Source: Polytrichum commune
Taxonomy: Eukaryota; Streptophyta; Polytrichopsida; Polytrichales; Polytrichaceae
NCBI GenBank assembly: GCA_950295325.1
Contig: OX485803.1
Coordinates: 16,058,001 to 16,122,000 of the forward strand
Reading direction: 5' to 3'
Length of the DNA: 64,000 bases
The translations under genes were made by a program, and so were the position numbers. Within the stretch, counting starts at the first letter, position 1. Every line of letters starts with the position of its first letter. Positions 18,151 to 64,000 of this stretch are shown piece by piece. The notes beneath the pieces are model-generated. The model had not been told where the DNA came from, did no database searches, and saw only the letters and a list, made by a program, of their open reading frames with translations.

Positions 18151-19587
18151 AAATTTAAAAAATCCAAAATCCAAAATCCAAAAATATATAAAAATAAATG
18201 AAAAGGCCCCCCACCCTGCCGGCTGCTGGCGGGGGGCAGGGAGGGCCGGGGAGGGTAGCACTGGGGGAGCCGCGTCACTGAGGCGCGGATTAGGGAGCCG
18301 AGCCTGTGGGCGGCTCCCACAATCTGAGCCACTCACTTGGTAGCATTCATCCAACGGTTGAAAAAATCCTAGGTGGCGGGCGCCCATAGTCGGGCACGGG
18401 TCCCAAACGCGGGCGGGCATGCAAGGTCCGGCACGGGTCCCGGAACGCACCTCCCCATTAACTGCGGTCCAAATTAATTGATGTCAAGTGAGGAGAGGGC
18501 ATTAGAATTAATTGATGTCAAGTGAGGAGAGTGCATTAGAATTTATTGATGTCAAGTGAGGAGAGGGTATTAGAATTAATTGACATTAATTAATTTGGAC
18601 CACAGTTAATGGGGAGCTGTGTTCCGGGACCCGTGCCGGACCTCGCATGCCCGCCTACGTTTGGGACCCGTGCCCGACCATGGGTGCCCGCCACCTAGGA
18701 TATTTTCAACCGTTGGATGAATGTTTAGAAGTGAACGGCTCAGATTGTGGGAGCTGGCCACAGGCCCGGCTCCCTAATCTGCGCCTCAGTGACGCGGCAG
18801 GGGAGGGGAGGGCGGCGGGGAGGCATCCGGCTCGGCTTGCCGCCGGCCGCGTGCCGTCACAGCCTGGAGTCCAGAGAGCTCCGGCTCTCGGCGCCGCTTC
18901 CTCTTCTCCTCTCCCTTGTTGATTCTTTTAATTTTTTTGTAAATTTTTGTGAATGAACTTGAACTTGAATCGGAATGAAGAGTGCTCTTCACAAGCTTAA
19001 TGATACAAATCCAAGCTTGTAAGTGGAAAAATAACAAGGAATTCCGTAGTCAATTCAATAATTCATCACCACAATTCACCTTGATGTGGCCTTCAAAAAA
19101 CAAGCATTCTTCATCTTGTTGTGCCGCAAATTCGCGGTGTTCTCTCTCCGGAACTTCGCAACTTCATCACTCTTTGTCCTCACGCCTTTCCTTGTGTGTT
19201 ATATATCAAGAATGAAAAAGAAAACATAAAAAATGAGGCATTCTTCCCAGGTGAGAAGGAAGAAAGTAGAACACTCATAATAGCTCTAAATCTCTTTTCA
19301 AATGCACACAATTAATCAAGCTATCTCTCACTCCACCACGGGAGAATCCAAGAGTGCAAGAGAGGGGAGAAGAACTCAAGATTTATTGTAAAAACATGCA
19401 ATCTTCACCTCACACAAGCTCTCTTCACACACTCACTTACAAGACTTGACTTGGCAAGAATGTCAAGCCAAGGAGGAGGCTCCTCACTTAGGAGCCTCAC
19501 TTTCCAAAACTAAGGTTCATCCATCCAACTCTAAATGAATAAAGCCCAACGGATAAGGTGCGGCCGCCGACGCCACATACCGTGACA
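18151..19587 (-). mobile_element. Degenerate LTR (solo or truncated) related to the 62-kb LTR
   Basis: The outer end, read on the minus strand, starts TGTCACGG. This is very close to the TGTCACGT start at 62951. From 19315 (ATCAAGCTATCTCTCACTCC, then GGAGAATCCAAGAGTGCAAG) and from 19441 (AAGACTTGACTTGGCAAGAA) it parallels 62601 and 62744 in the same order and orientation. Both copies also have a GC-rich block flanked by AT-rich sequence. No gag or pol follows, so it is a solo or truncated LTR. A foldback element is inserted in it. Confidence 0.6.
18269..18798. mobile_element. Foldback transposon with 218-bp arms, nested in LTR
   Basis: The left arm 18269-18486 begins GCCGCGTCACTGAGGCGC, and the right arm 18581-18798 ends with its exact inverse. 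The arms stay closely complementary along their whole length, including the CGGGCACGGGTCCCAAACG segment. The 94-bp centre is made mainly of 34-bp direct repeats (TTGATGTCAAGTGAGGAG at 18478, 18512 and 18546). No coding sequence is present. The GC-rich arms contrast with the AT-rich surroundings. A target duplication is not clear. Confidence 0.82.
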
Positions 19588-37500: not shown

Positions 37501-40500
37501 AGCCACGGGCAGCATTGAACTTGGCTTCCATGGGCTCTAGCCGCCTCCTCAAGCTACACAAGAATGATGTTGTCCTCTATGCTGCCAAGGTCTTTCTCAA
37601 AACCTACCATGTTTGCTTCAATTCGGATGGTTTCAAGACCAAAGTTTTTCAGGGGCACTGTATATTTATAATTCACAGTACCGTAGAGGGAGCTCTAGTT
37701 AGTCTCTACTACAGCAAATAATTAGTGTCACCTTCTATGTGGAATTACGCAATGCTATAACATTTGACTATTCATGTAAAAGTTACCAAGTATAGAGGTT
37801 AATGTTCTATAATGTCCAAACTACCAATTTGACCTTTGTTGGCAAAAAATGAGATATACAGTAACCAGTTATAGCATTTTGTAATTCCAAACAGTATGTG
37901 AGACCAAATACAATATTTAGTGTAGTGCTGCAAGTTGAGTCCATCTGGGTCTTTGCTATTGTGGGAATGACATGTGGCAAAAGTTGAGGGGAAATCTGTC
38001 GGGATAGCTCTATGGTATTCAGCACTTGAAGATGCTGTTGTTCTTCTACAGATGATTCCTGGCAATGAAACACGAGTGGTAAAGATGATGAATCGAATTG
38101 CAGAGCTTGGGCCAACTATTGTGATGGGTAGAGGAGAGAATTTGCACACTTCCGGTCATGCATATCGTGATGAATTGGTGAGACATCTCATCAGGATGTT
38201 ACAATTTGTGCGATTAACCAAAAATGTTAACATTGTTTTTCTATACCTGAGAAAATTAAAGAAAATATTTTAAATGTTGTCTTTCAGCTTAATAAGGTAC
38301 ATGCATATATCAAATTAATATAGGATTATATTCCAAGGGTTATGTTTTTGTCAAGTATGTGCTGAAATTATCCAAATACCTTATAAAGCTAAAACATGCT
38401 TTTGTCAAAAGATGTTGGCTGTTGTACAAGACCTCCTTCCAGGAGCATTACTGATTTGTACTGTAGTGTGCTGCAACTCCCAGCTATTGTAACTACTTTG
38501 CCACTACATATGGAGGTTAAACAACAATTATGAGTACAACGTGCGATGTAAAAGAAGAAACCGAGACATGAAGAACTGAGTGTCAATTTGTGGTGATGTT
38601 AAACATTGTTGCATTCTGTTCTTGACAAGGGAGTTGGGATGCTGTGGGTGTTGTTAAACATTGTTGCTTTTAGGAGGAGGTGTTGAGACTGGTGAAACCA
38701 CAACATTTTCTTCCTGTTCATGGGGAATTTGCCTTCCTCAAAGAACATGAACTTCTTGGCAAAGCCAATGGCATTAGACATACTGCAGTAAGTTTATGAT
38801 AATCCCACAGTGCCTTGGTTTCCTGATGTAACTTATTGTGATTACTATGTTACCTGCATTTCTTAGCCTACTTTCCTATCTGTAGAGCGGCATGTTCACT
38901 AAGAGGGGATTTAGAGGTTATAGGAGTTTTAATAGATGTTTAATGAGTACATCTCATGGTGCAGGTAATTAGAAATGGTGAGATGCTGGGTGTGGCTCCT
39001 CTAAGAAATGGTCGCGTTCTCTCAAGTGGATTCTCCAATCTTGGAAAGGAAAAGTTGAAGGTTAGTGTTCGTTAAAAACATTTGTCTGTTCAGATGTCAC
39101 CTTGTGTAAAGTGAAAATTTTCTCTCTGGAAAAAAGTTCTGTTGTAAATTGAAGAATTTGCAGCTGAAACAGAAACATTATTGGGAAACTCACTAGAATG
39201 CATTCAATTGTGGCAGTTGATGTACAATGATGGGGATAAGGCATTTGGAACAGCAGCTGACCTTTGTGTCCAAGAACGCATGCAAATTGCTTTAGAAGGC
39301 ATCGTAATTGCCAGGTACACATACATATCTGGTAACTCCAATATTATGTCAAGATTGATTATGTCAGTTGGATTTATTTTTAGTCTTGGACTGGTATTTA
39401 GGTTCCAGCATGGTATCAATACACAATATTATTAATGGTATTAAAAAATTTACCTGACTGGTATAAAATTTGTAATATCAATATGGTATTAGGATGATAT
39501 TGACCCAAACACACGTGGGAATACCATGTGTTCACCTATAAGGTATCCAGGTGTTACTCAGTTACTTTTCTTAATTGGACACCTATATTTGATTGGTGTG
39601 GGGTTAGGTAACAATTAAAGACTAAACACTATAAAGACATGTGTTTAGTCCATAAAGAGATTGGACTAAGTCGTCAAATGTTATTAACTACTCCACACTC
39701 AATAGTGAACATAGTTTAGAGGACCCATGTATTCGGTGAAGGAATCAACAAACATGCCCTTCCGTTAACCATAACTAAATCAGGGGAAATCCAAATTTCA
39801 ATCTGGTTTTTGTTGATGCTTCATCATAGATTTGCTAATGCATTGCAAATTTGAAGACATAAATAGAAGATGAAGAACAAGAAAAGCAAGCCACTTAACA
39901 CCTGCATATCTTACACCAGTCAATGTATGGACTCCTGCAGTTAGTTATAGAAATTGCAAGGTATTATGTGTAGTCATACTCATGATGAAATTGTCATTGC
40001 AAACAGTGTTGAGGTCATAAGAGCTGAAGAAACAACAACACTTGGTGAAGATGATGAACTGGTTGAAGATGATGATGATGATGAAGAAGGTGACGAGTAT
40101 GGGTTGCAAGGACGTATCCGAATTACCACTCGTTGTCTGTGGACAGATAATGGTAAACTGTTAGAATCATTGCAAAGGGCAGCTGATGTGGCACTCGCAG
40201 CCTGTCGAAAGGATGCAAAGCTTCCAATTGTGGAGCGCCAAGTGGGAGCGGTCCTCCGCAAAGTAGTGCAGAAATATAGTAACCGAAGACCAGATGTCAT
40301 TGTTATCGCAACTGATGCTTCGGAAGGGGTTACGCCTAATAGAACTCTTATTCAAGGGCTTGGTCAAACTCAAAACAATGACCAACATCAACGTCATGGT
40401 AAGGGTAATGGTAATGACACGTGGACCCGGTCTTCAAGTGGGTCCGTTGTCAGAGGGAAATTAGAAACCGTTCATAATAAGAAGAGCATAGAGCAGCGAG

Positions 40501-43149
40501 TAGAGAAGAAGAAAGTTGAGAGGTTGGAACACACAGTATTATCGGCTACAGTGAGTACAGTAGTTGAGGTTGAAGCCCTCGAAAGTGAAGCTCCTGCAAC
40601 AAATTCTCAAGTTGAAGTGACTGAGGATGATAGTCTTGCGTTGGCGCCATCTGAGGATGTCCTCACACCAGAAGGTACCAATTTCTTGTTTGAGTATGCA
40701 GTCTTATTTTTCTACCAATTTCTAGAAATATTCATGTCATTGACTGTTAACGACAGATTTAATGGCAATGCTCCACTGATTTGGGGAAGAATGCTCAAAA
40801 TTTTCAAGATCAAGACATGAATAAAAATAAATAGTGCTAGGGATGTCATAAACACAAGGCCTTAATCCAGAAAGCGTCTGAGAGGCCCAATCTGGGCCTC
40901 TCTATGTATTTGAGCAACATACTTCCATTTATAGCTAACTGTGTTAAAAGTGACCCTATTTAAAATGACCTACTTCATGAAGTGTAGTTTTAAACTCAGC
41001 TGAGTACCTAAGTAGAAATTCGGGTTTAAATACATGACCTGGGTGCCTTTGGATGCAAATATAAACTTAGTATATTGATCATCAATGTCATATATGACCA
41101 TTTTTTAGTCAAGAGTGCTTTCTTGATTTTATACTGCTTGCAGTCATCCATATTTTTTGATTGCATCACGTCTGGTACATTCATTCGTAATACTATTAAC
41201 TTCCGCCTTCCTGTGCCAAAAGGTGTTGAGTGAGAATGAGAATGGCCAAAAGCTATTAAGTGGTCTAGTTAGATGTCCTTGAATCTGAATCTCGATGAGA
41301 ATATGTGACTTTGACAAGGATTTCCCTACAGTCACAATGCAGTCCAGAGGTCCTTGTAATTGATCTATTGGTGGTTTGATAGGGCCTTGTATATTAGTGT
41401 GCCGCAGAATTCTGTACACTGAATCGATGAACACAATAGAGCACACCGAGTATAATGCGAAAATCTGAAGTGTCAAGTACCTACATTGCTCTGAACTTTA
41501 TACAGATTTGAAGAGCAGTGATGACAGTGAGGATACTGACTCCGAAGAACCAGGCCCAGTCAATGGAGTTAAGGTTTCAAGTCCACCAACTTCAGAGGAA
41601 GACAATCCAACATTTACAAAGAAACGCCAAAAGTGGAGGTAATCAAACGAAACCCAGTGGTCTACTACCATGCAAAGTTTATTTACAAGGGATGGATGCA
41701 TACTTTTTGTTTTGTATTGAGATACTTTGTAATGTCTTGGGCCATCTCCGCACCAGCTGCTCAACATGTTATTGTCGACGTCCTACTGTTTTAGAACTTC
41801 AGAATGCCTACTACGTCACCACCAGTGTTGGATTGGTATCACCTTTTTTTGATACCACTCGAATATACCTATATTATGAGGTTTCTACATTGTTTTGATA
41901 CCAACAGGGTAAGCGTGTTTGAATATACTCTCTTTTTTACACCATTTGGGACTATATACCACTCAAGAACCTTCGTACCTGGGTCAACTACCCCACTATC
42001 AATATGATAATAGGATAGTATTGACCCAACAAAACTCGGGTACACAAAGATCCTCTCATCTTGTGATACCCATCCAGTATCAATGTTGACTCATTTTAAT
42101 TTGGATACCGGTTGGGTAGGATCTTTGTTACCTCTAATAAAATTGTGAATTGATACCACATACAGGATGGACGAGACCTTGAAGCTAATTGAATTGAGAA
42201 GTGCAATGGAAGACCAGTTTGCCGTGGAAAAGAAAAAGAGGAAATCGGTCTGGAAAGACACTGCAGCTTTGCTGGAACAGCAAGGATTCAAACGTACCCC
42301 AGAGCAGTGTAGCTCCATGTGGTCATCTTTGGTCAAGAAATATGAGGTAGAAACTTCCTCTCTGTCAGCAATTGTTTTTTACCTGCTCTATAAACTTGGT
42401 CACAGCATTTGCTTCTTCTAGTGTGCGCTGAGGGCCACTTGACACCATGGCCAAGTGCTGTGACCATGAAATTGCAAGGGCCCTTGCAACCCACCTGAAC
42501 GATGTATCATGGGAAGTTGAAATTGAATTTTGTGTGATCACGGGCCTCCAAGTGAAGTGTAAAGACAAATGCAACCGAACTCTCAACCAATGCTATTTCA
42601 TCACAATCCTACTCATGGAGGCCCTTCTGCACATTAAGTTAGAAAATCAAGGGTTGTGAGATATTGAAGTGCCATGGTCATCTGGTTTTTTATTAGACCC
42701 ACATCTTTGAGGTGGGCTTAACACAAAATCCGGTAGACCATGAAACATTATGCATTTCATGCCATGTAGGGCCTCTTGTAGTGTTTGTTCATCCATTCAA
42801 ACTTTGTCGGTGCCTTACACACCTCAAGCTCTAATGTAAAGTGAAGGGGGGCATTTTCCACCAATGTGAGATTTTAGATTTTCTATGGTCTTGGCCCCTC
42901 AAGCTCTAGTGTAAAGTGCTGGATGTTCATGTCGCTATGGTGGATTGTGCTTCAAATGAGAACCATTCTAATTTGTCAACCCCTGACCATATATGGGCCC
43001 AGGCTGTGGCCGAGGAGAAGGCAACAAGGGATCCAAACACTGCACCCTCAAAGAAAGAGTGGCCTTATTTTGAGGTGGTCGGAGCGGTCCTTCTCAAGCA
43101 GAAGAACTCCAAAACTCTGGACACGCAAAATGGTAATTTGGCAAAGTGA
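31527..43149 (+). CDS. RNJ: Plastid ribonuclease J with C-terminal GT-1/trihelix-like domain, 18 exons
   Basis: RNase J is a metallo-beta-lactamase/beta-CASP exo- and endoribonuclease that matures chloroplast RNAs and removes antisense RNA. Exons: 31527-31686, 32670-32937, 34266-34389, 34729-34785, 35334-35525, 35714-35791, 36615-36800, 36896-36976, 37143-37208, 37497-37589, 38052-38177, 38674-38787, 38965-39060, 39217-39314, 40007-40674, 41506-41638, 42166-42346 and 43003-43149. All junctions are in phase, giving 955 residues (Arabidopsis is about 910). The zinc motif HGHEDH is at 173-178. [27 protein letters not shown] and PVHGE follow. An acidic run near 593-609 is unusual. The trihelix-like end (about 845-925) contains [18 protein letters not shown]. 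Exon 1 encodes a basic, transit-like leader. Its join to exon 2, at a pyrimidine-poor acceptor, is the least certain junction. Confidence 0.92.
31738..32425. repeat. Tandem duplication in RNase J intron 1 (about 410-bp period)
   Basis: The stretch from about 31738 and that from about 32146 are collinear duplicates. Both have TTTTTGTAGCA, TTTTGAGGTTTCTGTGCCTG, GACATCTT, ATGACATAT, AAGTTCTCAATCC and GGAAATGTACAAA in order. They lie between exons 1 and 2. The copies are non-coding and diverged by perhaps 15-20 percent. Confidence 0.75.
32890..34020. repeat. Duplicated exon-2 end and telomere-like/GAGGTT repeats in RNase J intron 2
   Basis: The 3' end of exon 2 and its donor region (32889-32970) recur at about 33349-33415 with mutations, sharing CATGGTTGATG, GGTCTCATGTTCC and GTTTGTGCATCCCATTTTGC. 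A shorter copy lies at 33682-33715. Between them are interstitial telomere-type TTTAGGG runs (33017-33031 and 33457-33478), an AGGTCA hexamer array (33434-33456), and many direct and inverted copies of a GAGGTTGAGGTC / ACCTCAACCTC module. Confidence 0.8.
34931..35260. repeat. Dispersed repeat family R, copy in RNase J intron 4
   Basis: It begins GGACACCTTTATTTAAGTGG and follows the same order as the SGR intron copy at 9174, including GATATTGGACTACGTGCT, CATTCTAGGCT, CAACATAATTGGGG and GAGAAGTGGGTG. Confidence 0.6.
35908..36150. repeat. Dispersed repeat family T, copy in RNase J intron 6
   Basis: It is the shorter partner of the copy at 26262-26640 in PGPP1 intron 6. The order of shared motifs is the same, with internal deletions. 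Confidence 0.5.
39382..39900. repeat. Adjacent copies of repeat families S and R in RNase J intron 14
   Basis: Positions 39382-39555 carry the family S landmarks GGACTGGTAT and GATATTGACCCAAA. Family R begins at 39577 (GGACACCTATATTTGATTGG) and runs to about 39900 through GAGATTGGACTA, CTACTCCACACTCAA and TTCATCATAGATTTGC. Exon 15 begins about 100 bp later. Confidence 0.65.
41821..42150. repeat. Dispersed repeat family S, copy in RNase J intron 16
   Basis: It starts ACCAGTGTTGGATTGGTATC, nearly identical to the start at 26846. It then has CTCAAGAACCTTCGTACC, TAGGATAGTATTGACCCAA and GATACCGGTTGGGTAGG. It ends about 15 bp before exon 17. Confidence 0.62.
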
Positions 43150-48500: not shown

Positions 48501-48934
48501 CATGTTCGATCGATCTCCAAAGAGAAGTGGACTCATCCGACAAAGGAGAAGATAGATAGATAGATAGATAGATATACATAGATATACATATATACATATA
48601 CAAGCAGTGAAGGAAGCGAGCGTGCGTGCAGGTGGTGGGCATGAAGGAGGAGGGAGTGGGGTCGGACTCGGGGTGCAAGAGCATTGAGTTGCGGGGGCTG
48701 GGGCGTGGGAGCCTGCAGTGGACGGAGATGGGCCGTGTTCCCAGCCACATGAACCACATGCGCTACAACTTCGACAGCTACAGTCGCGGCCACTTTGTGT
48801 TCCTGCTCTATGCCACCAAGCTTCTCGTGCACAACGTCGCCACCGGGGCCTGGAGCTTCGCGCCCCCCTGTCACCACGTCTGTGAGAACTTTCAGGAGTT
48901 TTGTTTCGAGCCCAGGTTGAACATGGTGGCGTGA
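45562..48934 (+). CDS. F-box/kelch-like protein, three exons
   Basis: F-box proteins link substrates to SCF ubiquitin ligases through SKP1/ASK; the substrate here is unknown. Exons: 45562-45891, 46369-47040 and 48632-48934. The GT-AG junctions are all phase 0 and the protein has 434 residues. The F-box is at about residues 49-92 (WSELPNHLVYKVLALLPFRDF, then WVCRRWSRLVDSQSF). The remainder resembles the galactose-oxidase/kelch-type half of plant F-box proteins, with hydrophobic strands such as AKILVWDDYVFC and KLLVHNVATGAW, but no repeat is sharp enough to count blades. A TTC microsatellite encodes nine serines in exon 2. The ATG at 45562 is the first in frame; ATGs at 45574 and 45646 are alternatives. 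Intron 2 (1.6 kb) holds a MITE, a C tract and a GATA microsatellite close to the acceptor. Confidence 0.85.
47282..47580. mobile_element. Tourist-like MITE, 299 bp, in F-box gene intron 2
   Basis: It is flanked by TTA on both sides (47279-47281 and 47581-47583). The left end is GGGTGGGGGTACACTAGGG. The inverted right end is GGGTGGATTTACATTATGG, and both reach a GGGTCC motif soon after. The TTA target duplication and GGG-start inverted repeats are typical of PIF/Harbinger-derived Tourist elements. Confidence 0.78.
47878..47892. repeat. Poly-C tract
   Basis: An uninterrupted run of about 15 C residues in the F-box gene intron 2. Its length may be a sequencing or assembly weak point. Confidence 0.8.
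48552..48603. repeat. GATA/CATA microsatellite next to a splice acceptor
   Basis: About six GATA units followed by ATACATA-like repeats end roughly 30 bp upstream of the acceptor of the last F-box exon. Purine-rich sequence occupies the usual pyrimidine-tract position. Length changes here could affect splicing. Confidence 0.75.
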
Positions 48935-50450
48935 AATAGGTAGATAGGTAGGTAGGCAGAATGTTCCTCAATCCAACATACATCTATTCAAGAAGGTTCA
49001 AAAATTCGGCCTTGGCGATACAACTTGACAGCTGCAATAATTACGGCGACTCTGTGTTTGTGTTGTATGCAACAAAGCTTCTCGTCCATAACGTCGTGAC
49101 CGGGGTGTGGATCGGAGCTTCGCATCTCCCTGTGTAACCACGTCTATGAGAACTTTCAGGAGTTTTGTTTCAAGCTGAGCTTCAACATGATGGCATGAAA
49201 TAGGTAGGTCGGTGGGCGGGCAGGTAGGTAGGTAGAATGCTCCTCGATCCAGCATACATCTATCCGAGAAGGTTCAAAAATTCGTCCTTGGCAATACAAC
49301 TTGACAGCTGCAATTACGGCGACTCTGTGTTTGTGTTGTGTGCAACAAAGCTTCTCGTCCATAACGTCGTGACCGGGGTGTGGAGCTTCGCATTTCCCCC
49401 TGTAACCACGTCTGTGAGAACTTTCAGGAGTTTTGTTTCGAGCCAAGGTTGAACATGGTGGCATGAAATAGGTAGGTAGGTGGGCAGGCAAAATGCTCCT
49501 CGATCCAATATACATCTATTCGAGAAGGTCCAAAAATTTGTCCATGACGATGTTTCGTGTGTCAACATTTCTATATGCACGAAAGGAGAAGCAACTAAGT
49601 TTTGTATCAGCGCAAAGTTGTTTATGAACTTAGTTGCCTTGGCGATATAACTTGACAGCTGCAATTACAGTGACTCCGTGTTTGTGTTGTATGCAACCGA
49701 GCTTCTCGTCCATAACGTCGCGACCGGAGCGTGGAGCTTCGCATCCCCCCATGTAACCACGTCTGTGAGAATTTTCAAGAGTTTTGTTTCAAGCCGAAGT
49801 TGAACATAGTGGCATGAAATAGGTAGGTAGGTAGGTAGGTAGGTAGGCACAATTTTCCTCAATCCAACATACATCTATTCAAGAAGGTCCAAAAATTTTG
49901 TCCATGGCGATATTTCATGTGCCAAGATTTCTATATGCATCGTTGTTCTTGGATAGGAGAAGCAATTCAGTTTTGTATTAGGAAAAGTTGTTTATGAACT
50001 TAGTTGCCTTGGCGATACAACTTGACAGCTCCAAATTACGGCGACTCCGTGATCGTGTTGTATGCAACAAAGCTTCCCGTCCATAACGTCGCAATTGGGG
50101 TGTGGAGCTTCACACCCCCGAGTAACCACAATCTTGAGATTTTTCAAGAGTTTTGTTTTAAAGCGAGTTTGAACGTGGATAGGTAGGTAGAATGGTGCTT
50201 AATCCAACATATACATTTATTTAAGAAAGTTTCAAAAATCGTCCATATCGACATTTCATTGTTCTATGCCAAAATTCTATATGAATCATTGCTCTTGGAC
50301 AAGAGATGTGCCCAATAGCAGGTATTTAGGTTTGTAAAGGATAAGTTTATCTATGAACTTAGTTGGCTCGACGATGCAACTTTGATAGCTACAATCACGG
50401 CAATTTCGTGTATTCATGTATAAGGTTGGTAGGAATGAGAGTTGCTTGCC
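48935..50450 (+). repeat. Tandem array of decayed copies of the F-box gene's last exon
   Basis: Five further copies follow the real exon. An ACAACTTGACAGCTGCAAT-like anchor, matching 48762 in the exon, recurs at about 49020, 49298, 49648, 50018 and 50374. The period is about 260-370 bp. Each copy continues with GCAACAAAGCTTCTCGTCC, a TGGAGCTTC block, a GAGTTTTGTTT block, a GGTAGGTAGG microsatellite where the exon's stop region lies, and CATACATCTATTC. Copies 2-5 resemble each other more than the functional exon. They keep a readable ATKL-LVHNV stretch but carry frameshifts and stops. The last copy is truncated. Confidence 0.85.
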
Positions 50451-51002: not shown

Positions 51003-51358
51003 GTTTTCATTAAATGAGAGTATGTTAAGCTGGGAAATCGACTCATTTAGGTTCAGTCGGCCTAAATGAGGACAATATTTTGTCAATTTAGGTTGAGTCG
51101 ACCTAAATGAGGACATTATGTTGTCAGTTTAGGTTGAGTCGACCTAAATGAGGACAATTATGTTAGTCAATTTAGATTGAGTCGACCTAAATGAGGACAA
51201 TATGTTAGTCAATTTAGGTTGAGTCGGCCTAAATGAGGACAATATGTTAGTCAATTTAGGTTGAATCGACCTAAATGAGGACAATATGTTGTCAATTTAG
51301 GTTGAGTCGACCTAAATGAGTCGATTTCCCAGCTGAACATACTCTCATTTTAATGGAA
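51003..51358. mobile_element. Foldback element made of palindromic 40-bp tandem units
   Basis: The outer ends are imperfect inverted repeats of about 45-50 bp. GAGAGTATGTTAAGCTGGG at the left is mirrored by CCCAGCTGAACATACTCTC at the right. Between them lie about seven direct units of 40-42 bp. Each is centred on a palindrome TTTAGGTTGAGTCGACCTAAA-like core (with TCGGCC or TCGACC variants) joined by TGAGGACAATATGTTGTCAA spacers. No coding sequence is present. The structure is self-complementary at two scales. Confidence 0.82.
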
Positions 51359-53474: not shown

Positions 53475-54175
53475 TATCAACCCATCAGCCCATCTTGAAT
53501 GTCAAGTTGCAAGTTTGACGTAGAAACAACGAATGCATGTAATGTGTTAATGGAAGCACCACCCAACATTACTAGGTATTGACTTGTGTCATATTCTAAG
53601 GGCAATTTACATTAGAGAAAGGTTTACAGTGTTAGATAGTCTCAAGCCTTTCTTCTCCCAACTTGATCGTCATGTTGGTATTACTTGTTATTGTACAAAG
53701 GTTACTACATTTTAACTCCACCTTCGTACACTTTTCTTAGACTTGTCGTATAAACTAAGATCGTTAAACACAACAAATCGAGTGTCGTCATCAACATCAA
53801 TTAGTAAAATAAAATAGCAAACTAATATGCTAAACAACCACCTCTTCAAGTGCCCCCACTAGCAGATAAGGAGCCCCTCCAATCGGCTAGGAACAAACAC
53901 ACTCAGCGGTAGAGTTGTTGAACATGATGAAGTTGTTGCTACATCTATACATATCCAATTGGTTAGTGGTAATCTAAGGAATTAAACTCATGATGGAGAA
54001 AGTAATCCAAGAACTGTAGGCTGGGTGCAATGTGAGCCCCATCCTTAATCGCCTTCAACAATTTATGTTGAATTCTTGGATAACTCTTTCAATGTGATTT
54101 TCAATCCCATAAACTTTCCAACCAACTAAATAATAACTTCACCACTAAAACATGTGGTAAACATCCACAAAATCT
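53475..54175. other. Region beyond the retroelement 3' end, no LTR found
   Basis: This is where a 3' LTR would be expected for the minus-strand element. None of the landmarks of the 62-kb LTR occurs here. Either the 3' end was lost or later insertions replaced it. No gene was recognised. Confidence 0.45.
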
Positions 54176-55750
54176 TCAATCATGACCATTAACGGCCATG
54201 GAATGAGAGGCTTTCCGACAACGAGGACAAACCCAATTGCCAGAACGAAGAGTCAAAAGGGGAGGTGTCAAACATGCCATGTGCCATCCACATTGACATT
54301 GGTCGCACAATAACATTGTTGCAGCTCCTTTCTTCTCTCCACAAACATAACAAGGCAGACCCTGTGGTACAACCGCCAACTCGGGATGCACAGAGCAGTC
54401 GATGGGAAGGTGACATGGAGCACAATTCTTTGAATGCTCACGACATTCCCGTCCATCTTTGCCTTCAAGCAATAATATACCACTTGGCAAGACATCTTTT
54501 ACCCGCAAAATCGTGCGCCCAGCCTTGACATCCAATGTCGTAGGCGCCTCCCATTGCAAGTAAACATAATCCCCCTTGGAAAATCTACGAACCTGAGGTC
54601 GATAAGCTCCACTGCGGATCCGGGCATACCGTAATGTATCACGATGCTGAGCAATATTTAAGTTCTCTATGGCCATAGGCATAGCCTTTTGGAAGAACTT
54701 TGCTCGGTCATGAAGACATTGAGCCCAAACATCTGGATCATCCAAATTTACCACGGGAGCCAATTTCTCTTGCACCGAGCTAGGTAAAATTGGTTCCCGT
54801 CCATACAAGAGTTGGTATGGACTATAGGATGCCAAAGATGTTTGCCGGCTGAAACGATAACCCATTGCTATCCATGGTAACATCAAGTCCCAATCGCGAT
54901 GGTCGCCATGAAGCAATCCATACTTCCACAAACCACGCTTAACCGTCTGAACAACTCGTTCAGCTAAACCATCTACCTCAGGGTGATCTCTGGAAGTTGT
55001 CCGATGATCAATCAAAGCCTTGATACACAAAGCCTCGAAAGATCCAAGAAATTCTCTCCCTTAATCCGTCAACACCTCTGCAAGTGCTCCAAACCGTGCC
55101 AAAACTCTATCAAGAAATGCCATAGCCGCCAATTCTGAGGAATTTTGGGGAAGAGCCACGAGTTCAATCCACTTACTAAAATGCTCCACCATCACAAGCA
55201 CATACTTGGAACCACGTGGAGTGATAGTAAGCGGTCCGGCAAAATCCAAAGACCAACGATATCCCAAGCCCATAATAGGTAAAGGCTGAAGTTGAGGTGA
55301 CAAAGTATTAAAACTTGACCTGACCCGGTCACATACTTCACACCGAGAAACATAAGTGACAACCTGTTGATACATACCAGTCCACCAATATTGGTTGCGC
55401 AATATAGAGTGTGTCATTTGCACTCCAAAATGTCCAAGCTCCTCGTGCACTTGGCGCACTAAAGAAGCTCTTTGATCTGGCCTTGGAACGATGCGCCTTC
55501 TTCCGTTCGGCCACACACGAAACAACAAGCCGTTTGCCCAACGAAACCTTGTTATTCGATGGCTAACTCTATCTTGCTCCATAGCAGATAGTCCAAGAGG
55601 AAATATCCCTTGTTGAAGTTTGTGCAAGACCGCCTGGTCTTCCCACACATCACTAACAACAAGAGATTTATCAACCTCCTCATCTTGTTCTTCCACAAGG
55701 ATCTCAGCAGCCAATCCTGACATATTGTGAGATATGTGGCAGCATGCCAA
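54176..55750 (-). pseudogene. Integrase with C-terminal PHD finger (broken)
   Basis: The upstream frame (55061-55750) holds the zinc-binding HHCC region (HELGHFG, then CEVCD) and the first two catalytic acidic residues (SLDFAGPL and VLTD). An in-frame stop directly follows VLTD. The next frame (54176-55030) resumes in the same phase with the third catalytic residue, in HPEVDGLAERVVQ. It continues with a basic C-terminal domain (RFSKGDYVYLQW, then ILRVKDVLPSG) and ends in a PHD finger. Integrase inserts the cDNA copy into the genome. The single stop could be read through or be a point mutation. Confidence 0.82.
54218..54352 (-). other. PHD finger at the C-terminus of the integrase
   Basis: Residues 227-271 of the last frame have Cys227-x2-Cys230-x11-Cys242-x2-Cys245-x4-His250-x2-Cys253-x14-Cys268-x2-Cys271, a complete C4HC3 pattern. 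The Trp two residues before the seventh ligand (NWVCPRC) is present, as in true PHD fingers. PHD fingers usually bind the histone H3 tail. In chromoviruses a chromodomain occupies this place. No stop lies between the integrase core's second half and this domain, so it is a real fusion. A RING or FYVE finger is excluded by the spacing. Confidence 0.83.
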
Positions 55751-57304
55751 TCCGGCACTGCCTCACGATCACAATCTCCATGCCACCTGGCTCCAGTTAA
55801 ATCCTCATCTGAAGGACTTGGATTGCGAGACAATCCGTCTGCATCTAAGTTGGCAATTCCTGCTCGGTGAACAACTTCAAAATCATATTCATGAAGTAAC
55901 AATGCCCACCTAGCAAGTTTTCCGGTGAGCTTATCTGATTCCATAAGCCATTTTAAAGGCGATGATCAGTCACCAAAGTAAATTTTTGCCCATACAAATA
56001 AGGTCGAAAATGTGCAATGGCCCAAACGGCCGCCAAGGCCTCGCCTTCATAAGAAGAATAATTAGATTCAGCACTATTATTGCTTCTAGATGTATAAGCC
56101 ACCACATATTTCTTTCCCTCTTCATCTTTCAGTGTCAATACCGCTCCCAATCCTACTGCACTCCAATCCGTGTGCAATTGAAAAGCTCTAGACACATCCG
56201 GGCGTCGAAGCACTGGCGCTGAACCGAGCTTCTGCTTCAATGTATCAAATGCTTGTTGTTGTTCCCGACTCCAAATCCATGGTTGGTCTTTCCCCGTGAG
56301 AATGGTAAGAGGTTTGGCAATCAAACTAAAGTTTTTGACAAACCTCCTATAATAATTTATCAATCCTAGAAATGCACGAAGCCGTGGTACAACACTAGAT
56401 GCGGGAATTTTGTGCAAAGCATCCACCTTTGCCTGTTGCACACCAAGACCGCCAGGAACAATCATGTGGCCTAAATAGGGCAATTGATCATGGAAAAACT
56501 TACATTTTCCATGATGTAAACGGAGTCCCCACCGTTGAAGTTGTTCAAATACCGCTTGCAAATGTCTCACATGATCATATGCACTATTACTAAAGATGAT
56601 AACATCATCAATGTAACATCTAGCAAACGGCAAACCAGTTAATAATTGGTCCATCACACCCTGAAATTCAGCTGGTGCATTCTTGAGACCAAATGGCAGA
56701 AATTTCCAATGATAAAGTTGATCCTTGCCATCTTTATCAATTCCCCAAAATGCGGTCTTCACCCGATCACCCAACAACAAAGGTAATTGGTGATAACCAG
56801 CCTCAAATCCATAGTACTGAAGATTCTAGAAAATCCCAGTGCATCAAACAACTTCTCCGGCATCGGCATTGGATATCGATCCAACTTGGTCTTGCGGTTG
56901 ACTGGACGATAATCACCACACATCCGTTTTTCCGTCTAGTTGCCAAAGATATCCTTCTTTGACGACATAACCGTAGCACAAGCATACTCTCCATTGAAGA
57001 GTTCAATCAATTCCGCTACCAATAACTCTTGACATAGAGTTTGAACACCCAACCTTTCAGAGGTACTAAGTCGGTACGGCCGTCTGAAAATAGGATGGTC
57101 GTCCTCAAGTTGAATACGAACATGTTTACCTTTATATCCTTCAAGATCATGAAGACTAAAGGCAAAACAATTACGGTAAGAGCTAATAAATGCCCGTACC
57201 TTTCGTGCTTCGGCACCAGTAAGCTTTGGCCCCACTTCAATTGGCCAATCGTCAAACTCCGTGGTTTCCTTCTTCATAGAAGGATTGCCACTTGGTGCCA
57301 ACAC
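55751..57304 (-). pseudogene. Reverse transcriptase and RNase H (broken)
   Basis: The N-terminal RT part (56936-57304) has the typical FRRPYRLS stretch. A stop follows, then a short open stretch with MCGDYRPVN in the same phase, then another stop near 56829. The main part (55953-56780) holds FLPFGLKNAPAEF and the catalytic YIDD box. It then has RNase H signatures: LHTDWSAVGLGAVL, with the first acidic residue, and SYEGEALAAVWAI. The RNase H end (HRAGIANLDADGLSRNP) is on the next frame (55552-55944), after a frame change near 55950. This order and the YIDD box are typical of Ty3/Gypsy. Confidence 0.85.
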
Positions 57305-57658
57305 AGCCTGTGATTGCTAGTCCGTGGAGAGGGCAATACCTTTGCCCCCATCATCTGCACTTGAATCCAAATGCGTATCCTCTCCACTACAATCAGTTTG
57401 TGTAGCTAAATAGCTACCCACAGATGAAGTATCACCAAGAAATACAAGTGGAAACATTTTATGGGCCTCCAACTTCCCAAACTCTTGGGCCAAAGCCGAA
57501 AAAACACGTTGGGCTCGAAGCTCTTCCGCAACATGAAGTTTCAAAGGAAATAATCCCTCGCTGTCATTGACCTCAATGTGATCCTTGGATTGCGGCTCCA
57601 TTGCCCCCAGACCATTGTTCTCTGCCCTCAGAGTAAGCAATTGGTCATCCATACGTTG

Positions 57659-58630
57659 TTGAGCAGCAAGACAAATTCCAATTATCCACACAATGCTGTT
57701 AAGATCCATAGCTTGCCCCAATAGGAAACGTCTCTGACCTTCCTGAAGCCCGTGAGCAGCCGTGGTACCTGTAAGAAAACCCATGGCACGTTCCCGCTCA
57801 TCTGCCATAGGCTCCTCATAAGTTTGGAATTTTGAATCCCAAACCATGCCAGGTCCACGAGATCGAAATACAAAAGACTGTGGATATGTCACAAAAATAG
57901 GTAGTGCACCTCTCGGAATGCCCACCTTATTAATTAATGCAAATGGCAAGGTATCATCCTTGGTAACTGCCAAGGAAACACGATGATCATCTAAAATGTC
58001 ATCCACCTTGCGATCCATAAGGCGGGGAATGCGGGCAATCGCCGCTGAAAGCACCCAAGGTGATACCAAGTTGGTCCAAAATCAACGAGGCCGATGAGCA
58101 AAGGATCCCTAAGATGCAGCATCCAGAAATTTTGGAGTATCCAGAATTTGGTTAATGTACTCACCATCCTTCACCACTTTGTGCCGGGTATCACCCAATA
58201 ATGGTACATTTTCGAAAATATATTGGCGTAGTTGATTGGTGGTTAAACCACCATTGCGTCAATCGCATCAAATCAGCAAACAAACTAGACCTAGGATCAT
58301 CCAATCCCTGGCCAGTTCCTGCCCGCGAATGGCCTTGACAAGGCCATCCTGCAATAATCAAATCCACGTGGCCTAATCTTCTCAAATCCTCATCACTAAT
58401 CATAGTGACATCTTGAGGAAGTTGACCACAACATCCATGACTGGCAGAGGCTGACAATTATGCGGGGTATCTCAACAACAATTGTTGGATGTGGTGTCGG
58501 ACGGCTCTGTTGGCTACATACCCATTGTCCACATGAATATATCGCCAAACTATAATTCCAGCTTCCAACACTGCCGCCAAACCTGTGCCAATGCCTCCAA
58601 AGATCTCCACAAGGACAATACCTTCAGGTG
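57659..58630 (-). pseudogene. Cytosine-5 DNA methyltransferase domain inside pol (broken)
   Basis: Motifs appear in canonical order over about 324 codons, the size of a complete catalytic domain. Motif I is VEIFGGIGTGLAAVLEAG (SAM binding, about 58610). Next comes an acidic HVDN turn, then motif IV DLIIAGWPCQGHSRAG with the catalytic Cys (about 58340). Motif VI FENVP (about 58210) lies in a shifted frame. Motif VIII, an RPR-then-FW-N stretch (about 58080), is split by a stop. Motifs IX/X are ERERAMGF and QRRFLLGQAMDLN (about 57700). Breaks: a TAA at 58458, a one-base shift near 58230, and TAG and TGA near 58110 and 58085. The unpermuted order argues against DRM; PCQ resembles DNMT1/CMT/bacterial enzymes, while the C-terminal part recalls DNMT3/DRM. 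Confidence 0.82.
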
Positions 58631-58959: not shown

Positions 58960-59698
58960 CTGCCATCTCCAGTGGACCATCCCGGTCTAATCCATGCCTC
59001 TTCCGTCCAATTATCCAAACCAAAGCCAAGTGGGTAAAGAGCTTGCTGACCAACAAGTATATCATAGTTGGTAGCATTAGTAACAACACACTTCATTGAC
59101 AAATGAATGTAAGTAGGCCCTGCCCCCACATGAAAAATCAAACATAGAGGTGCCTTGGTGTAACCTGTTGCACGTTCAGTGCCCCTACTGAAGTCACAAT
59201 AGTGAATGGACAAGGATCCAAGCTTGCTGGCGTCAATCCAAGACTATCAGCAAGTCCTTTGCCAATCATAACCGGTTGAGCACTGGAATCCATCATAACT
59301 CTCAGTGGTGTAGCACGGATAGTGGGCATATCCGTGCGTGAAACGACAAACAAAGATTTGTCGTTCATCAGCCGTACAACTCCAGGTCGCAAATTATGCC
59401 GTTCGCGAGCAGGCCTTGCAGAAATATCTGCAAGATATGCCGCTCCCGACGCATAATTCGAAAATGACGTATCCACTGCTGAAATTGATGCTGGAGGAAT
59501 ATCAGTTTGCTTACCAAAAGCAATGATCGCCGCATCCGCAAGACCCGCTCGCAAATTGGCTAAGTCCTCCACCTCCTCAGCCACAGGTACGTCAACAACA
59601 GCTTGGAATACTTGAAGGGATGGCAAATCCGCCTTACCTTCTAACATTCTCCCAGCTAAATGAAAAACTGCAGCAGGCTTCAAATCCGGAGCCATCAA
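58960..59698 (-). pseudogene. Retroviral-type aspartic protease (broken)
   Basis: The first half (59138-59698) ends with PLRVMMDSSAQPVMIGKGLADSLGL, which matches the active-site loop of retroelement proteases. It has DSS in place of the usual D-T/S-G. The second half (from 59213 in another frame) has YDILVGQQALYPLGF, the conserved strand after the flap. A frame change near 59150 separates the halves. Protease matures the gag-pol polyprotein. The DSS triad is either a family variant or a mutation in this copy. Confidence 0.65.
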
Positions 59699-61409
59699 CT
59701 CCGAACCTGAGAAATTGGCATATGGAGAATTTTATATGCCAATGCCTGCGTAACATCCTTCGAGATGGAATCCTCATCTCTCAAAGGTACCGGGTTTTTA
59801 GCCCCAACAACAGTGGTGTCTACCAGTCCAAATGAGAGAGGTAAACGTGCTTGACCAATTTGATCCGCAGGTCCGGCATGGCGAGGATGTGGCACCTCAT
59901 TGCTACCACCACTCGTGGAAGCCACCGCATCTGCCAATGTTTGTGAGCGGGTAGAAGCCACCGCCACCACCTCTCCAGCTGCTCCAAACATATACATGTC
60001 CGAGCCCGAGGTGCCACCACCCATATGCGGCTCATAAATCTGAGCAAAAGACGCAGAAGATTTGAGCTTTTGCTCAAGTTTTGCTACCTTAGCCTCCAGA
60101 CTCTGCTCCCGTGGAGATCTGCCAGTGACATAACTGGCAGGCCGCATCGCAGGATGAAGTTGGAAACAATGATCCACATCGTGATTAGTGCCACCACAAT
60201 GGCTACATTTAAATTGTCTCTTCCTAGAATTTTCCCCCGCCTTTACTAGTTCTACCTTTTGTTTTAATTTTCCTAAAGGCTGGGTCTTCTTCCTCTTCGG
60301 ACAATTGGGATCATTCTTCAAATGACCAGATTCTCCACAACCCCAACAATGCAAAATCTTTTGCTCCTTGACGGGTTGAGCCTCAGCTAAACTACTAGTA
60401 GTTGTGACAATTCTTCTTGGTTTCGGACTCTCTGTCATCCAAAATACCATATCCGTGGCATCATGTTGGCAAAGAGCCCGATCACATCTCTCAACCACAG
60501 CAAACGTTTGTGCAAGCGTAGCTCGGCCCTCGTAGTCGAGGATAATCCGAGGTGATGCCAACTCAAGTAGCCGCTTGTCAATCTTAGACAAAAAGATTTT
60601 AACAAGCTGACTCTCAGCAAAAATACCTCCCGACTCCACAGCAAATCGCGCGAGTCGCGTATACATGGTCCGTAGAGTATCATCCTTCTCTCGGCGGAAA
60701 TCCTGGATGCGCTGCATCTGGTCTCGCCGAAACCCACCATACTCCACTTCCAAATGTGCGACAAATTCAGTAAGGGGATTAAACGGAGGTGGTGGACCAA
60801 CAGCCGTCAATGCTGCCTGTGTAGCACGTGCCATCCGTGAAAGGATAGCCATGCTACTGCCAGCACTATTGGCCCAAGTGCCAGTTCTTTGTCCTTAGAC
60901 TCCTCCGGCGATTCCTCCTCCTTTAAGGTGGGTGGAGCTAAGGTAGCAACCGCCCCATCTTTAAGGGCTGAAATAAGCTCAACCCGGGCCTCCCAATACT
61001 GCTCCACCTCCCGAAGGTGTCGCTGATGACCCTCTGTCCAGCGTTCGTAAGTTTGGAGTGCCTCATACTCCAAATGCTGAGGCAGAAGTTCAAAGGCATA
61101 CCAATCATTGAAATTGGAAGACCTTTGGCGTTTCTCCTTAATCCAGGTACGAAACCGGAGTTTCCAATCGGGCAAGGAAATGCCCCCAGCTCGACCTGAA
61201 AACCGATCACGCACTGAATTGTGGCGATCGTCCTCCATTTCGTCGAACGTGCCGACACTCCAAATCCGAAGCCTACTAGTAGTGTCCAACGCCGAAATAG
61301 GCTCAAAAGCCTCGTTGGTATCTACCTCTGGCTCAAGATTTGTGGTATGCACGTCCTCCAAGTAATCTGGTGATGAAGATCGATAATATCGGCTCCTAGT
61401 TTGCACCAT
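59695..61409 (-). pseudogene. Gag with two CCHC zinc knuckles (frameshifted)
   Basis: It starts at 61409 with ATG and a basic MVQTRSRYYRSSS terminus. The first frame ends at 60807 and the second (59695-60852) overlaps it, so a frameshift lies near 60850. The second frame has a gag capsid-like segment (NPLTEFVAHLEVEYGG, then FRREKDDTLRTMYTRL, around residues 25-67), as in plant retrotransposon gag (UBN2/RVT-gag type). Two knuckles follow: CWGCGESGHLKNDPNC (CX2CX4HX6C, slightly long) and CSHCGGTNHDVDHC (CX2CX4HX4C). A short coiled-coil-like SLEAKVAKLEQKLKSS follows the knuckles. Gag packages the RNA. Confidence 0.8.
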
Positions 61410-61479: not shown

Positions 61480-62951
61480 AATGGCAATCCCTTGCCAAAT
61501 GCCAAGTGTTTATTTAGGCCTCCAGAACTCCAAAATTGTGCAAAGGTTTGAGATTGGTAATTAAAATTAAAAAATCAGCGTTGAAAATGTTAATTTCCAA
61601 GGTGATTATGGAATCCAATCAACAAACTAATTGCACCAATGGACTCCTAGGAAGATTTCACACAAATTAGGCTCAAATTTCACTCCGTTCGAAGTTAATT
61701 TGCTCCCAAAAACAAAAATCAGCGTTGAAATTAATAATTTCAGCAATGATTTTGAATTCCAATCAACAATCCAATTACACCATTGGATTCCTTGGCAAAT
61801 TTCACACAAGATAGGCTCAAATTTCACTCCAATCGGAGCTAGTATGCCCCCAAATTTGAACCTCAAAGTTTGTGAGAATTGGATGCCAAGTTTGAAAGGT
61901 GAAAGTAAAAATGTGAAAAAAATAAAATAAAAATATTTGTTTTAACTAAACAAAACTAAAACTAAAACTAAAACAAAATAAATATAAATAAATAAATAAA
62001 TAAAAAGGGTAAGGGCTTACCTTACCTGCCTGCCAGGGCCTGGCTGGCGCCCGCCCGCCCGTGGGGCCCGCCCGACGCCCGCCCGCCCCCAGCCCCGGCC
62101 CGGCCTGCGCCACCCGCCCCCGGTCCTCCCAGAATTGGAGCTCCAGGAGCTCCAAGAGGGTCCGGTGAGCTCCGGATCCGTCCAGAGCTCAACCAAAATT
62201 AAAAACAAATTGGATTTTAATTTTGGTTTGTGTTTGTGTTTGAATTAAACTTTGCTTTCACAATTTGCAAGCAAGAAAATGTGACTTGAGAATCTTGAGA
62301 CTAAATGGAATCTCAAGATTCAACCATCAACAATTGAAGAAAATACAAAGAGACAACAAAAGAAAAATGGGAAGATTTCTCTCAAAATCTTCTTGAGGGT
62401 TGCAAGAAATGACAAACTAAGCTTTCAAACACTTGTATCACTCATTTGCTCTCATTACTGGGCCATTCTAGCTCAGAAATACAACCAAAAATGAAAAATT
62501 TGAGCCATTGTTGTCAAGTATGAGGGTTTCTCTCTCCAAGCTTAAGAAACTAAAATGTCTTCTTACAAAGCTTAAGAAACTCTGAAATTCACACACAAGA
62601 GTCAAGCTATCTCTCACTCCACGAAGGGAGAATCCAAGAGTGCAAGTGGTGGAGAAAGAATGCAAAGGCTTTACTCATAATCTACTACACCATAGCCATG
62701 AGAAAGCAACAACAAGCTCTCTCTCTCTCAAAACACACTCACAAGACTTGACTTGACAACAATGGCAAGTCAAGAGGCCTTCCTCTCCATACAACCCCAA
62801 TCTTATGTGGAGGTCATCCATGGAGTGGATGAACAACTAACTAGGACTCCCAATGGAGTCCATTACTCATCCAAACACACATGGACTCCTAATGGAGTCC
62901 ATTTACTCCTAAATTGACGTGACTTAGCCCCCGATGTCACCTCACGTGACA
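61480..62951 (-). repeat. 5' LTR and leader of the minus-strand retroelement
   Basis: The outer end reads TGTCACGTGAGGTGACATC on the minus strand from 62951, beginning TG as LTRs do. Its downstream landmarks recur in the same order in the degenerate LTR at 18.2-19.6 kb. The inner boundary with CA and a primer-binding site could not be identified; no initiator-Met-type TGGTATCAGAG is present. The 61480 end is therefore approximate. A GC-rich block (62030-62120) and several AT-rich tetranucleotide runs lie inside. Confidence 0.6.
61571..61852. repeat. 144-bp tandem duplication in the retroelement leader/LTR
   Basis: Copy 1 starts at 61571 and copy 2 at 61715 with AAAATCAGCGTTGAAA. Both continue with CCAATCAACAA, CACCA.TGGA, TTTCACACAA and TAGGCTCAAATTTCACTCC. 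The copies differ by about 15-20 percent. They may be leader or LTR regulatory sequence of the element. Confidence 0.78.
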
Positions 62952-64000
62952 GACTCTTAAATCATTTGCCTTTGCGAAAATTAAATCAAATTCATCTCAT
63001 CAGGATGTGTGTCCAAAGAAATCTAATTCAAGCTGCATTGAAGGTGTTGAGTATGTGAAAATGTACCAGTTTTTATGAAGGTGAAGCGTCTCTCTCTCAT
63101 TATTACCTTTAAACTATATAAATAGTCAAGTGTGAAACTCTTAACAAATTGATTAGCCTCCTACAAAGTTTGGAATACTTAGTAGAATCTACACCTATGT
63201 CAGACAATATATTGTACTTAACCATGGGTTAATTAACCATAATTAAGGAAGTCATCATGCTCCACAATTTAGGGTTTCCGTGACCTTAAGGTACCCACTA
63301 CACCTTACTAAGCAAATACTTAAAGTGTAAACACGTCCATATGAAGACTCCTTTAAGTGTTGGGGGGGAGATAATACTTGGCTTAGTTTATTCATTGTGA
63401 CTTGGTAGATGCTAAGTGTGAAAGTGCATGGCATTTGGTGTACAAGAGGTTCTTACTATTCAATAAAGTTACACAATATATATGGCAAAAGAACATGTTT
63501 CTATGCCCAATTTTTTTTATTGAGTGTAAAGGTTTGCAACCTCTCAATAAACTAGATAGGTAAGATAAATGTGGTATATGAATTACTACTAAGCCTAATT
63601 GAAAACATATGACACACACCTTTCTAAAACATAATTGTATGTTTCGGTTGGTACAGGTGCAAGTGAGGCTAGCCCTTCACATTTGAACACCAGCAATAAT
63701 GCATTGCTCATGTTTGAATGGTCTTTTACTCTTGAAATATTACACTACTCAAAGTTATTATGTTGATGTGACTGGCACTTTGATGTATACACAAATTCCC
63801 AAATTGTACTTGAGGCATTGAGAATACTTTCTAGCAAATTAGGTACGTAAGCCTACATATCACATCATTGCTTTATTACTTGGTTGTAACAATATCATGT
63901 AATTATTGACCAAAATGCACGCATATGTTGGACCATCTTTGGAACTTAGTTGCCATAAGTGATGGATATTTGATACCAAGGCTTGTATCATAACATCACA
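62952..64000. other. Flank of the retroelement, no gene recognised
   Basis: The sequence is AT-rich with only short frames. No repeat partner elsewhere in the window was noticed. Confidence 0.45.

Follow-up and report, generated by a model that had tools for sequence, protein, structure and literature searches.

The window analysed in this study, a stretch of 64,000 nucleotides from the moss Polytrichum commune, contains one retroelement copy that spans positions 62951 to 53744, with all of its parts on the minus strand. The copy reads in the order repeat A1, leader, gag, protease, methyltransferase, tail, in-frame TAG, reverse transcriptase (RT), RNase H, integrase, PHD finger, purine tract and repeat B1, and it is flanked by the target-site duplication AGTC (62952..62955 on the 5' side and 53740..53743 on the 3' side). 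Repeat A1 (62514..62951; TGTCACG...CCCTCAT plus a few bases) forms the 5' end and matches the A repeat of another copy at 98%; directly after it, at the same position as in other copies, lies the putative primer-binding-site-like stretch ACTTGACAACAATGG (62505..62519). The gag part of ORF1, which has two zinc knuckles and is frame-broken (59698..61409), and the aspartic protease, with a frame change near 59183 (58990..59340), were recognised by eye, neither having a Pfam match in the window; the protease motif is DSSA at 59290, compared with DSGA in the proteins P0060 and P0140. The broken domain of a DNMT3-type C5-methyltransferase follows (57659..58630; motifs, Pfam PF00145), and after it come the C-terminal tail of ORF1 (57320..57658), ending in ...STD as does the protein P0001, and the in-frame UAG CAA UCA at the ORF1/ORF2 boundary (57311..57319), a probable readthrough stop whose context is conserved in copies.

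Downstream, RT and RNase H (55953..57316) are interrupted by a premature TAG (56938-56936) and by another break ahead of 56825. The integrase, with an H2C2 zinc-binding part and an rve core (54360..55762), contains an in-frame stop at 55063-55061; its rve match scored 32.2 bits, just below the Pfam cut-off of 32.6. The integrase C-terminus is a PHD finger (54218..54352; PF00628, 2.8e-9), and the 3' end consists of the candidate polypurine-tract-like stretch AGTGGGGGCA (53851..53860) and repeat B1 (CTTGAAGAGG...ACGACA, 53744..53850). The window copy thus carries RT, RNase H and an integrase (H2C2 and rve core) in the order typical of Ty3/Gypsy elements, as does the protein P0142, and no tyrosine recombinase family was found among the ten window ORFs scanned, an integrase being present instead. 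No ordinary LTRs were found in the window, because this copy is of the A-coding-B form, in which A2 and B2 are missing. The family to which this dead copy belongs is of the Gypsy type, young and present in many copies.

The methyltransferase domain carries, from the N- to the C-terminus between 58630 and 57659, the motif string VEIFGGIGTG, AGWPCQG, FENV, AHRPR.FWTN, DERERAMGF and LLGQAMDLN; we take VEIFGGIGTG to be motif I, and the cysteine of AGWPCQG is presumably catalytic. An earlier note on this DNA had placed a methyltransferase with these motifs, in order, between the protease and the RT of a Gypsy-type element, and its coordinates, motif calls and same-strand order were all confirmed. 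Pfam PF00145 was matched at 3.1e-11 when the window pieces were joined by X and at 9e-11 by the unbroken middle piece alone, while the remaining domain pieces, each alone, gave no PF00145 match. The frame is broken by TAA (58460-58458), a frame change at about 58222-58215, TAG (58111-58109) and TGA (58084-58082); the domain is complete but decayed, and the window copy cannot make the enzyme. A protein search with the domain returned 122 matches at E<=1e-3, the best covering 99% of the query at 81% identity, which rules out a chance resemblance to methyltransferases.

The genome searched comprised 407.8 Mb in 64 contigs, of which seven (42-78 Mb) account for nearly all. The best 40 of 305 candidates for the 972-base segment were the window itself, 38 other places at 96-97% and a single place at 92%, each over the full length. 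Twenty copies of this family (F1), next in rank after the window, were fetched for frame analysis: ORF1 was stop-free, at up to 1386 codons, in five of the 20, the methyltransferase frame was open in 14 of the 20, and ORF2 was open, at up to 1047 codons, in eight of the 18 that could be judged, some copies having both ORFs open. Long methyltransferase ORFs are also present in the protein database. A genome search with PF00145 gave at least 123 matches, all above the cut-off (scored among 353 candidates). Of 16 loci inspected, chosen chiefly for long frames, 15 proved to be element-type, matching a relative at 64-87%. Eleven of the inspected loci form a second family (F2), at 64-67% to the reference P0001 compared with 82-86% for the 20 F1 copies; the domain DNA of F1 and F2 is 65% identical. 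A distant methyltransferase match elsewhere in the genome (L073, G000:C2:4703606-4703959), 21.5% to the element domain, is possibly a host gene.

When the search was started from the RT side, the domain lay upstream in 38 of the best 40 RT places (414 candidates; window included), 23 of these being seen from listed matches, 14 via fetched stretches and one after a wider stretch was taken. One exception kept the tail and had no domain, protease or gag in the preceding 3.1 kb, and in the other the RT was cut or interrupted; a protease joined directly to RT was not seen among these best 40 places. The earlier note had considered that the segment might be a one-off insertion or a captured host-gene fragment. 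The first is ruled out by the RT-side result and by the segment search in the same genome, where 39 of the best 40 places, window included, lie at 96-100%; the second is ruled out by the open domain in the fetched copies together with the long database ORFs. The C5-methyltransferase is a family-wide, conserved part of a Gypsy-type element.

Beyond this genome, the search of genome contigs found L017 and four Streptomyces loci. L017 (CADCWO010000201.1) is a 9285-base contig encoding an element of this kind (63% identical to P0001 across residues 2-515), and its ends share 127 identical bases, as in a circular or collapsed-repeat contig. It is filed under a cyanobacterial MAG, and the relative P0002 under a Candidatus Obscuribacterales MAG; L017 is probably plant DNA, and probably from a moss.

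Selection on the domain was estimated as dN/dS by NG86, with L064 and L067, whose match was split in two, and the host-like L073 left out. The ratio was 0.50 within F1 (190 pairs), 0.53 between F1 and its close kin L071/L072 (40 pairs) and 0.25 within F2 (55 pairs). Between lineages, dS was infinite in 104 of 220 pairs for F1 and F2 (pooled pN/pS 0.31) and in all 20 pairs for F1 and L017 (pooled pN/pS 0.23), and it was finite in 2 of 11 pairs for F2 and L017 (pooled pN/pS 0.30). These data show clear long-term constraint on the domain. Among recent F1 copies constraint is weak, which post-insertion decay might explain.

Concerning the class of the enzyme, a 20-row profile searched against PDB matched DNMT3A at 1.1e-25, 4onj (labelled DNA methyltransferase, which we take to be a plant DRM) at 3.1e-14, DRM2 at 3.2e-11, HhaI at 2.2e-9 and DNMT2 at 1.2e-8, and DNMT1 was absent from the best 60 of 61 matches. 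The predicted fold of P0002 (mean pLDDT 82.6, from a 45-row alignment) had DNMT3A/3B as the listed best structures, with a top TM of 0.83 on target length, an rmsd of 3.3 and 21% identity. The motif around the catalytic cysteine is GWPCQG in the element, compared with GSPCND in DNMT3A. In a 43-row tree, in which DNMT3A and six bacterial-type rows served for comparison, the six bacterial-type rows stood apart (support 88/98) and DNMT3A fell, tentatively, among the element enzymes at 82/86, on a long branch (2.67). Those six rows came from 16 methyltransferase loci on viral contigs, 29-55% identical over short stretches and taken as bacterial or phage enzymes; L010 was dropped (<150 residues) and nine were unused. 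By profile and predicted fold, the domain is classed as DNMT3-type.

The boundary between ORF1 and ORF2 was similar across lineages. UAG CAA UCA (TAGCAATCA) stood between the tail and RT in 19 of 20 F1 copies, the remaining copy lacking the pattern; it also occurs in the window copy and in L017, where it is in frame with RT, and the four F2 copies inspected all have UAG CAA UUA (TAGCAATTA). The leaky stop context of the TMV type is UAG CAR YYA. Both contexts fit CARYYA, with open frame on both sides in F1, F2 and L017. The stop is not found in every relative: methyltransferase and RT occupy a single open frame in P0142 and P0149. The UAG is probably a leaky stop in a TMV-like context common to three diverged lineages; readthrough is proposed here because this context is conserved. 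Most ribosomes would then stop after the methyltransferase, so that the enzyme would be made in Gag-like amounts, and a minority would read through the UAG into Pol. A methyltransferase placed last in the gag ORF, ahead of an in-frame UAG whose context three diverged lineages share, is new.

Two identical terminal repeats (LTR-internal-LTR) were not seen in this element; instead, F1 and F2 have DIRS-type split direct repeats, A-coding-B-A-B. In F1, 15 of 21 copies had the junction B1.GC.A2 (one of them with AC), four, including the window copy, ended at B1 (A-coding-B), and two were not judged in their stretch. Because sorting relied on finding B with its end intact, copies damaged at B|A would have gone unnoticed. 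The 4-bp duplications next to A1 and the final B were perfect in 12 of the 13 copies for which both ends were available, namely in eight of nine A-coding-B-A-B copies, one having 3 of 4 bases, and in all four A-coding-B copies. Target-site duplications of 4-6 bp are typical of Ty3/Gypsy DDE integrases. Two inspected F2 copies had the same A-coding-B-A-B layout, and the one whose 5' flank was fetched had GATG on both sides.

The integrated ends are TGTC...GACA. The host bounds A...B, whereas the purine-tract-like and primer-site-like stretches bound B.A; such ends with 4-bp duplications, in an element whose two priming sites apparently delimit B.A, are new. No match to an initiator-Met primer site was found beside A1 at up to two mismatches, and the F1 primer-site-like stretch does not begin with TGG. 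The palindromic junction TTTACACGACA.GC.TGTCACG is common to F1, F2 and L017. Its F1 form had 99 exact genome matches with any two bases between, 85 of them with GC; the reversed junction pattern had 0 exact matches in the genome, and the A|B joint had 108. Among the matches listed on C1-C6, 62 of 86 B|A sites had an exact A|B joint 412-460 bases on and 24 did not, and 31 of 93 exact A|B joints lacked an exact B|A partner. These partnerless joints indicate that repeat recombination or mutation is common, which could make the A-coding-B form. The most surprising feature of the element is that split repeats, 4-bp duplications and an internal palindrome occur together with a DDE integrase.

Comparison of the repeats in eight copies showed that B1 and B2 differ at 0-2 of 75 sites within a copy and at 2.68 between copies, and that A1 and A2 differ at 1-6 of about 432 sites within a copy and at 8.9 between copies. 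Since the repeats are more alike within than between copies, both seem to be written in one cycle. The A1-A2 difference within copies was 0.2-1.4% (eight copies), or 0.5-1.8% in 13 copies with looser bounds, indicating recent insertions. The C-to-T context of 45 A1-A2 differences (30 CHH, 2 CG, 1 CHG and 12 other) is uninformative, CG and CHG sites being scarce in repeat A. The A2|B2 joint carried deletions in 2 of 15 copies, as end-joining would give, and in a third copy A2 was 27 bases shorter with the A2|B2 joint itself intact.

The PHD finger of the integrase, itself a new feature, was nearest to the fingers of CHD4, PHF12, a KDM5-type demethylase, KAT6A, KMT2D, PHF21A and UHRF1. Several such fingers read unmodified H3 tails, and animal DNMT3 carries an H3-reading ADD domain. 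By analogy with this ADD domain, the pairing of a methyltransferase with an H3-type reader in one element is suggestive.

Taken together, it appears fairly probable that the window holds a dead copy of an element that would encode gag, protease and DNMT3 ahead of a leaky UAG, and RT, RNase H, integrase and PHD finger behind it, that would integrate from circles and that would methylate its new DNA. Reverse transcription from the primer site to the purine tract would give repeats ordered B.GC.A, and on the simplest account the cDNA ends would be joined into circles, which we infer from the genomic ends alone. As the integrated ends are A...B though the priming sites bound B.A, the integrase may cut the palindrome GACA.GC.TGTC inside the repeat. 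A circle with two repeats would yield A-coding-B-A-B; the A-coding-B form of the window copy would come from a circle with one repeat or from subsequent B1 x B2 recombination. A linear B.A-coding-B.A cDNA that is circularised and cut at B|A would give exactly the two observed forms. The putative methyltransferase, packed with the cDNA, would most likely methylate the newly made linear or circular DNA by the time it integrates or earlier, and the PHD finger would probably guide integration to some state of histone H3.

Integration of circular DNA through an internal palindromic site was once proposed for retroviruses, and a foamy virus study reportedly described integrase cleavage of the palindrome at the 2-LTR circle junction. 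HIV-1 integrase can likewise cut the palindromic 2-LTR junction (PMC1905944). In retroviral 2-LTR circles the palindrome is the joint of two cDNA ends, whereas here it lies inside the putative repeat. We suggest only tentatively that the element has given up inserting linear cDNA end-on, that the integrase uses such an internal palindromic site on circles and that DNMT3 made at Gag level methylates these circles, which might thereby survive or enter chromatin unnoticed. Three diverged lineages have this architecture, and relatives with a methyltransferase extend to liverworts.

Alternatively, A-coding-B-A-B might be the product of normal linear integration in which strand transfer was atypical (such as an additional template switch on the repeat), and A-coding-B that of B1 x B2 deletions, with no circle at all. 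B1 and B2, about 100 bases long and nearly identical within copies, could recombine in this way, and the partnerless A|B joints would fit solo units from A1 x A2 recombination. We nevertheless regard linear integration as rather unlikely, since the primer-site-like and purine-tract-like stretches bound B.A and not A.B, and since deletions were found at A2|B2, although damage at B|A would have escaped the sorting.

The promoter repeat A is poor in CHG in three lineages (window 62514-62951; L078 286-619; L017 from 7063). CHG is the target of plant chromomethylases. On the coding strand, 27 of 28 F1 repeats had zero CHG, compared with 18.5-19.9 expected from dinucleotide shuffles of two F1 repeats (0 of 2000 as low), and F2 and L017 had two each, compared with 15.6 and 17.7 in shuffles. 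CAG/CTG was absent from all four repeat A sequences tested, and the window's own A1 has one CWG. The leader and ORFs had ordinary CHG content, and 2 of 305 control pieces of the window had <=2 CHG. Repeat A is also CG-poor in F1 and F2. Judged from its base composition, the near-absence of the chromomethylase target looks like escape from silencing. A CHG-free promoter was rejected as an element-only mark, since CAG/CTG-free runs of 338-378 bases (GC 0.39-0.44) also occur elsewhere in the window. Repeat A-like fragments (86% over 77 bases and 81% over 67 bases) were also noted at 19300-19476, inside a CWG-free run at 19248-19586, and are perhaps the remnant of a related repeat.

De Mendoza et al. 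2018 (PMC5890265) discuss a role on behalf of the host or in restraint of the element: the methyltransferase would silence new copies and limit damage, and would be kept because the host stays alive. With repeat A looking like an escape from silencing, such a role seems improbable for the present element, although this objection is weakened by L017, which is not CG-poor (CG o/e 0.79), and by the CHG-free runs that are not special to elements. It is very unlikely that the domain modifies RNA (the element genome or the tRNA primer) instead of DNA, since profile and predicted fold point to DNMT3, the RNA enzyme DNMT2 ranking much lower, even though PMC5890265 reports no DNA activity for the Gypsy type.

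The Klebsormidium and dinoflagellate captures mentioned in the earlier note are indeed described, as KnitGypsy-Dnmt3 and SymbioDIRS-Dnmt3, in PMC5890265. The closest published system, compared by description, is KnitGypsy-Dnmt3 of Klebsormidium nitens, which shares the DNMT3-type enzyme, the Gypsy domains, the absence of introns and the DIRS-like A-coding-B-A-B repeats. It differs in that its host is an alga and not a moss, its methyltransferase is described as lying within the Pol polyprotein ORF, whereas the present one closes the gag-protease ORF ahead of a conserved UAG, and a PHD finger, found here on the integrase, is not mentioned in the main text (PMC5890265). Its domain gave no methylation in yeast, a result that its authors considered inconclusive (PMC5890265). 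SymbioDIRS-Dnmt3 of Symbiodinium, for which CG methylation was shown in yeast (PMC5890265), shares DNMT3 and the A-coding-B-A-B repeats; it is a DIRS element with a tyrosine recombinase, whereas the present element has a DDE integrase and 4-bp target duplications. The earlier note knew of no land-plant element with such a layout: the methyltransferase is indeed a fixed part of a Gypsy-type family here, but the kind of element was already known from KnitGypsy-Dnmt3 (PMC5890265).

In PMC6338049, land plants, such as tracheophytes, are said to lack DNA methylase-encoding transposons, and a moss genome with at least 123 methyltransferase matches contrasts with this stated absence. No earlier bryophyte report was recognised in a literature search that ran without bioRxiv preprints and most subscription papers. 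In an experimentally accessible moss one could ask what advantage DNA methylation brings to a retrotransposon that produces it, and split repeats together with a DDE integrase provide a genomic test of integration from circles.

The named relatives of the domain come from Calypogeia fissa, Marchantia polymorpha, Sphagnum troendelagicum and Closterium, those of Marchantia and Calypogeia fissa being 41-51% identical. As here, Marchantia polymorpha Mp_4g09160 (P0140) has zinc knuckles, a DSGA protease and the methyltransferase in one ORF when inspected by eye, with only the methyltransferase matching in Pfam. The Marchantia and Calypogeia relatives are proteins annotated only as hypothetical, unnamed or uncharacterized. 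A second, new layout, with the methyltransferase before the integrase and PHD finger, was found in the metagenomic proteins P0151, P0154, P0155, P0156 and P0157, and in the three that hold RNase H (P0151, P0155 and P0156) the methyltransferase follows it. Like the window element, these proteins combine a Gypsy integrase bearing a PHD finger with a related methyltransferase, and they form a separate clade (100/98). P0151 has PECKD where others have GWPCQG.

Outside the retroelement, the window contains a host F-box gene with nine protein matches, the only named one being from the moss Ceratodon purpureus (57% identical), which points to a moss distant from Ceratodon. Tandem degenerate copies of an exon-like F-box-type piece, spaced about 256-371 bases apart, lie at 48760-50174. 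An array of units of about 42 bases, rich in GTCGACC and TAAATGAG, occupies 51012-51350 and also makes up a 97-base inverted repeat, and exons at 35265-40817 resemble, by eye, ribonuclease J.
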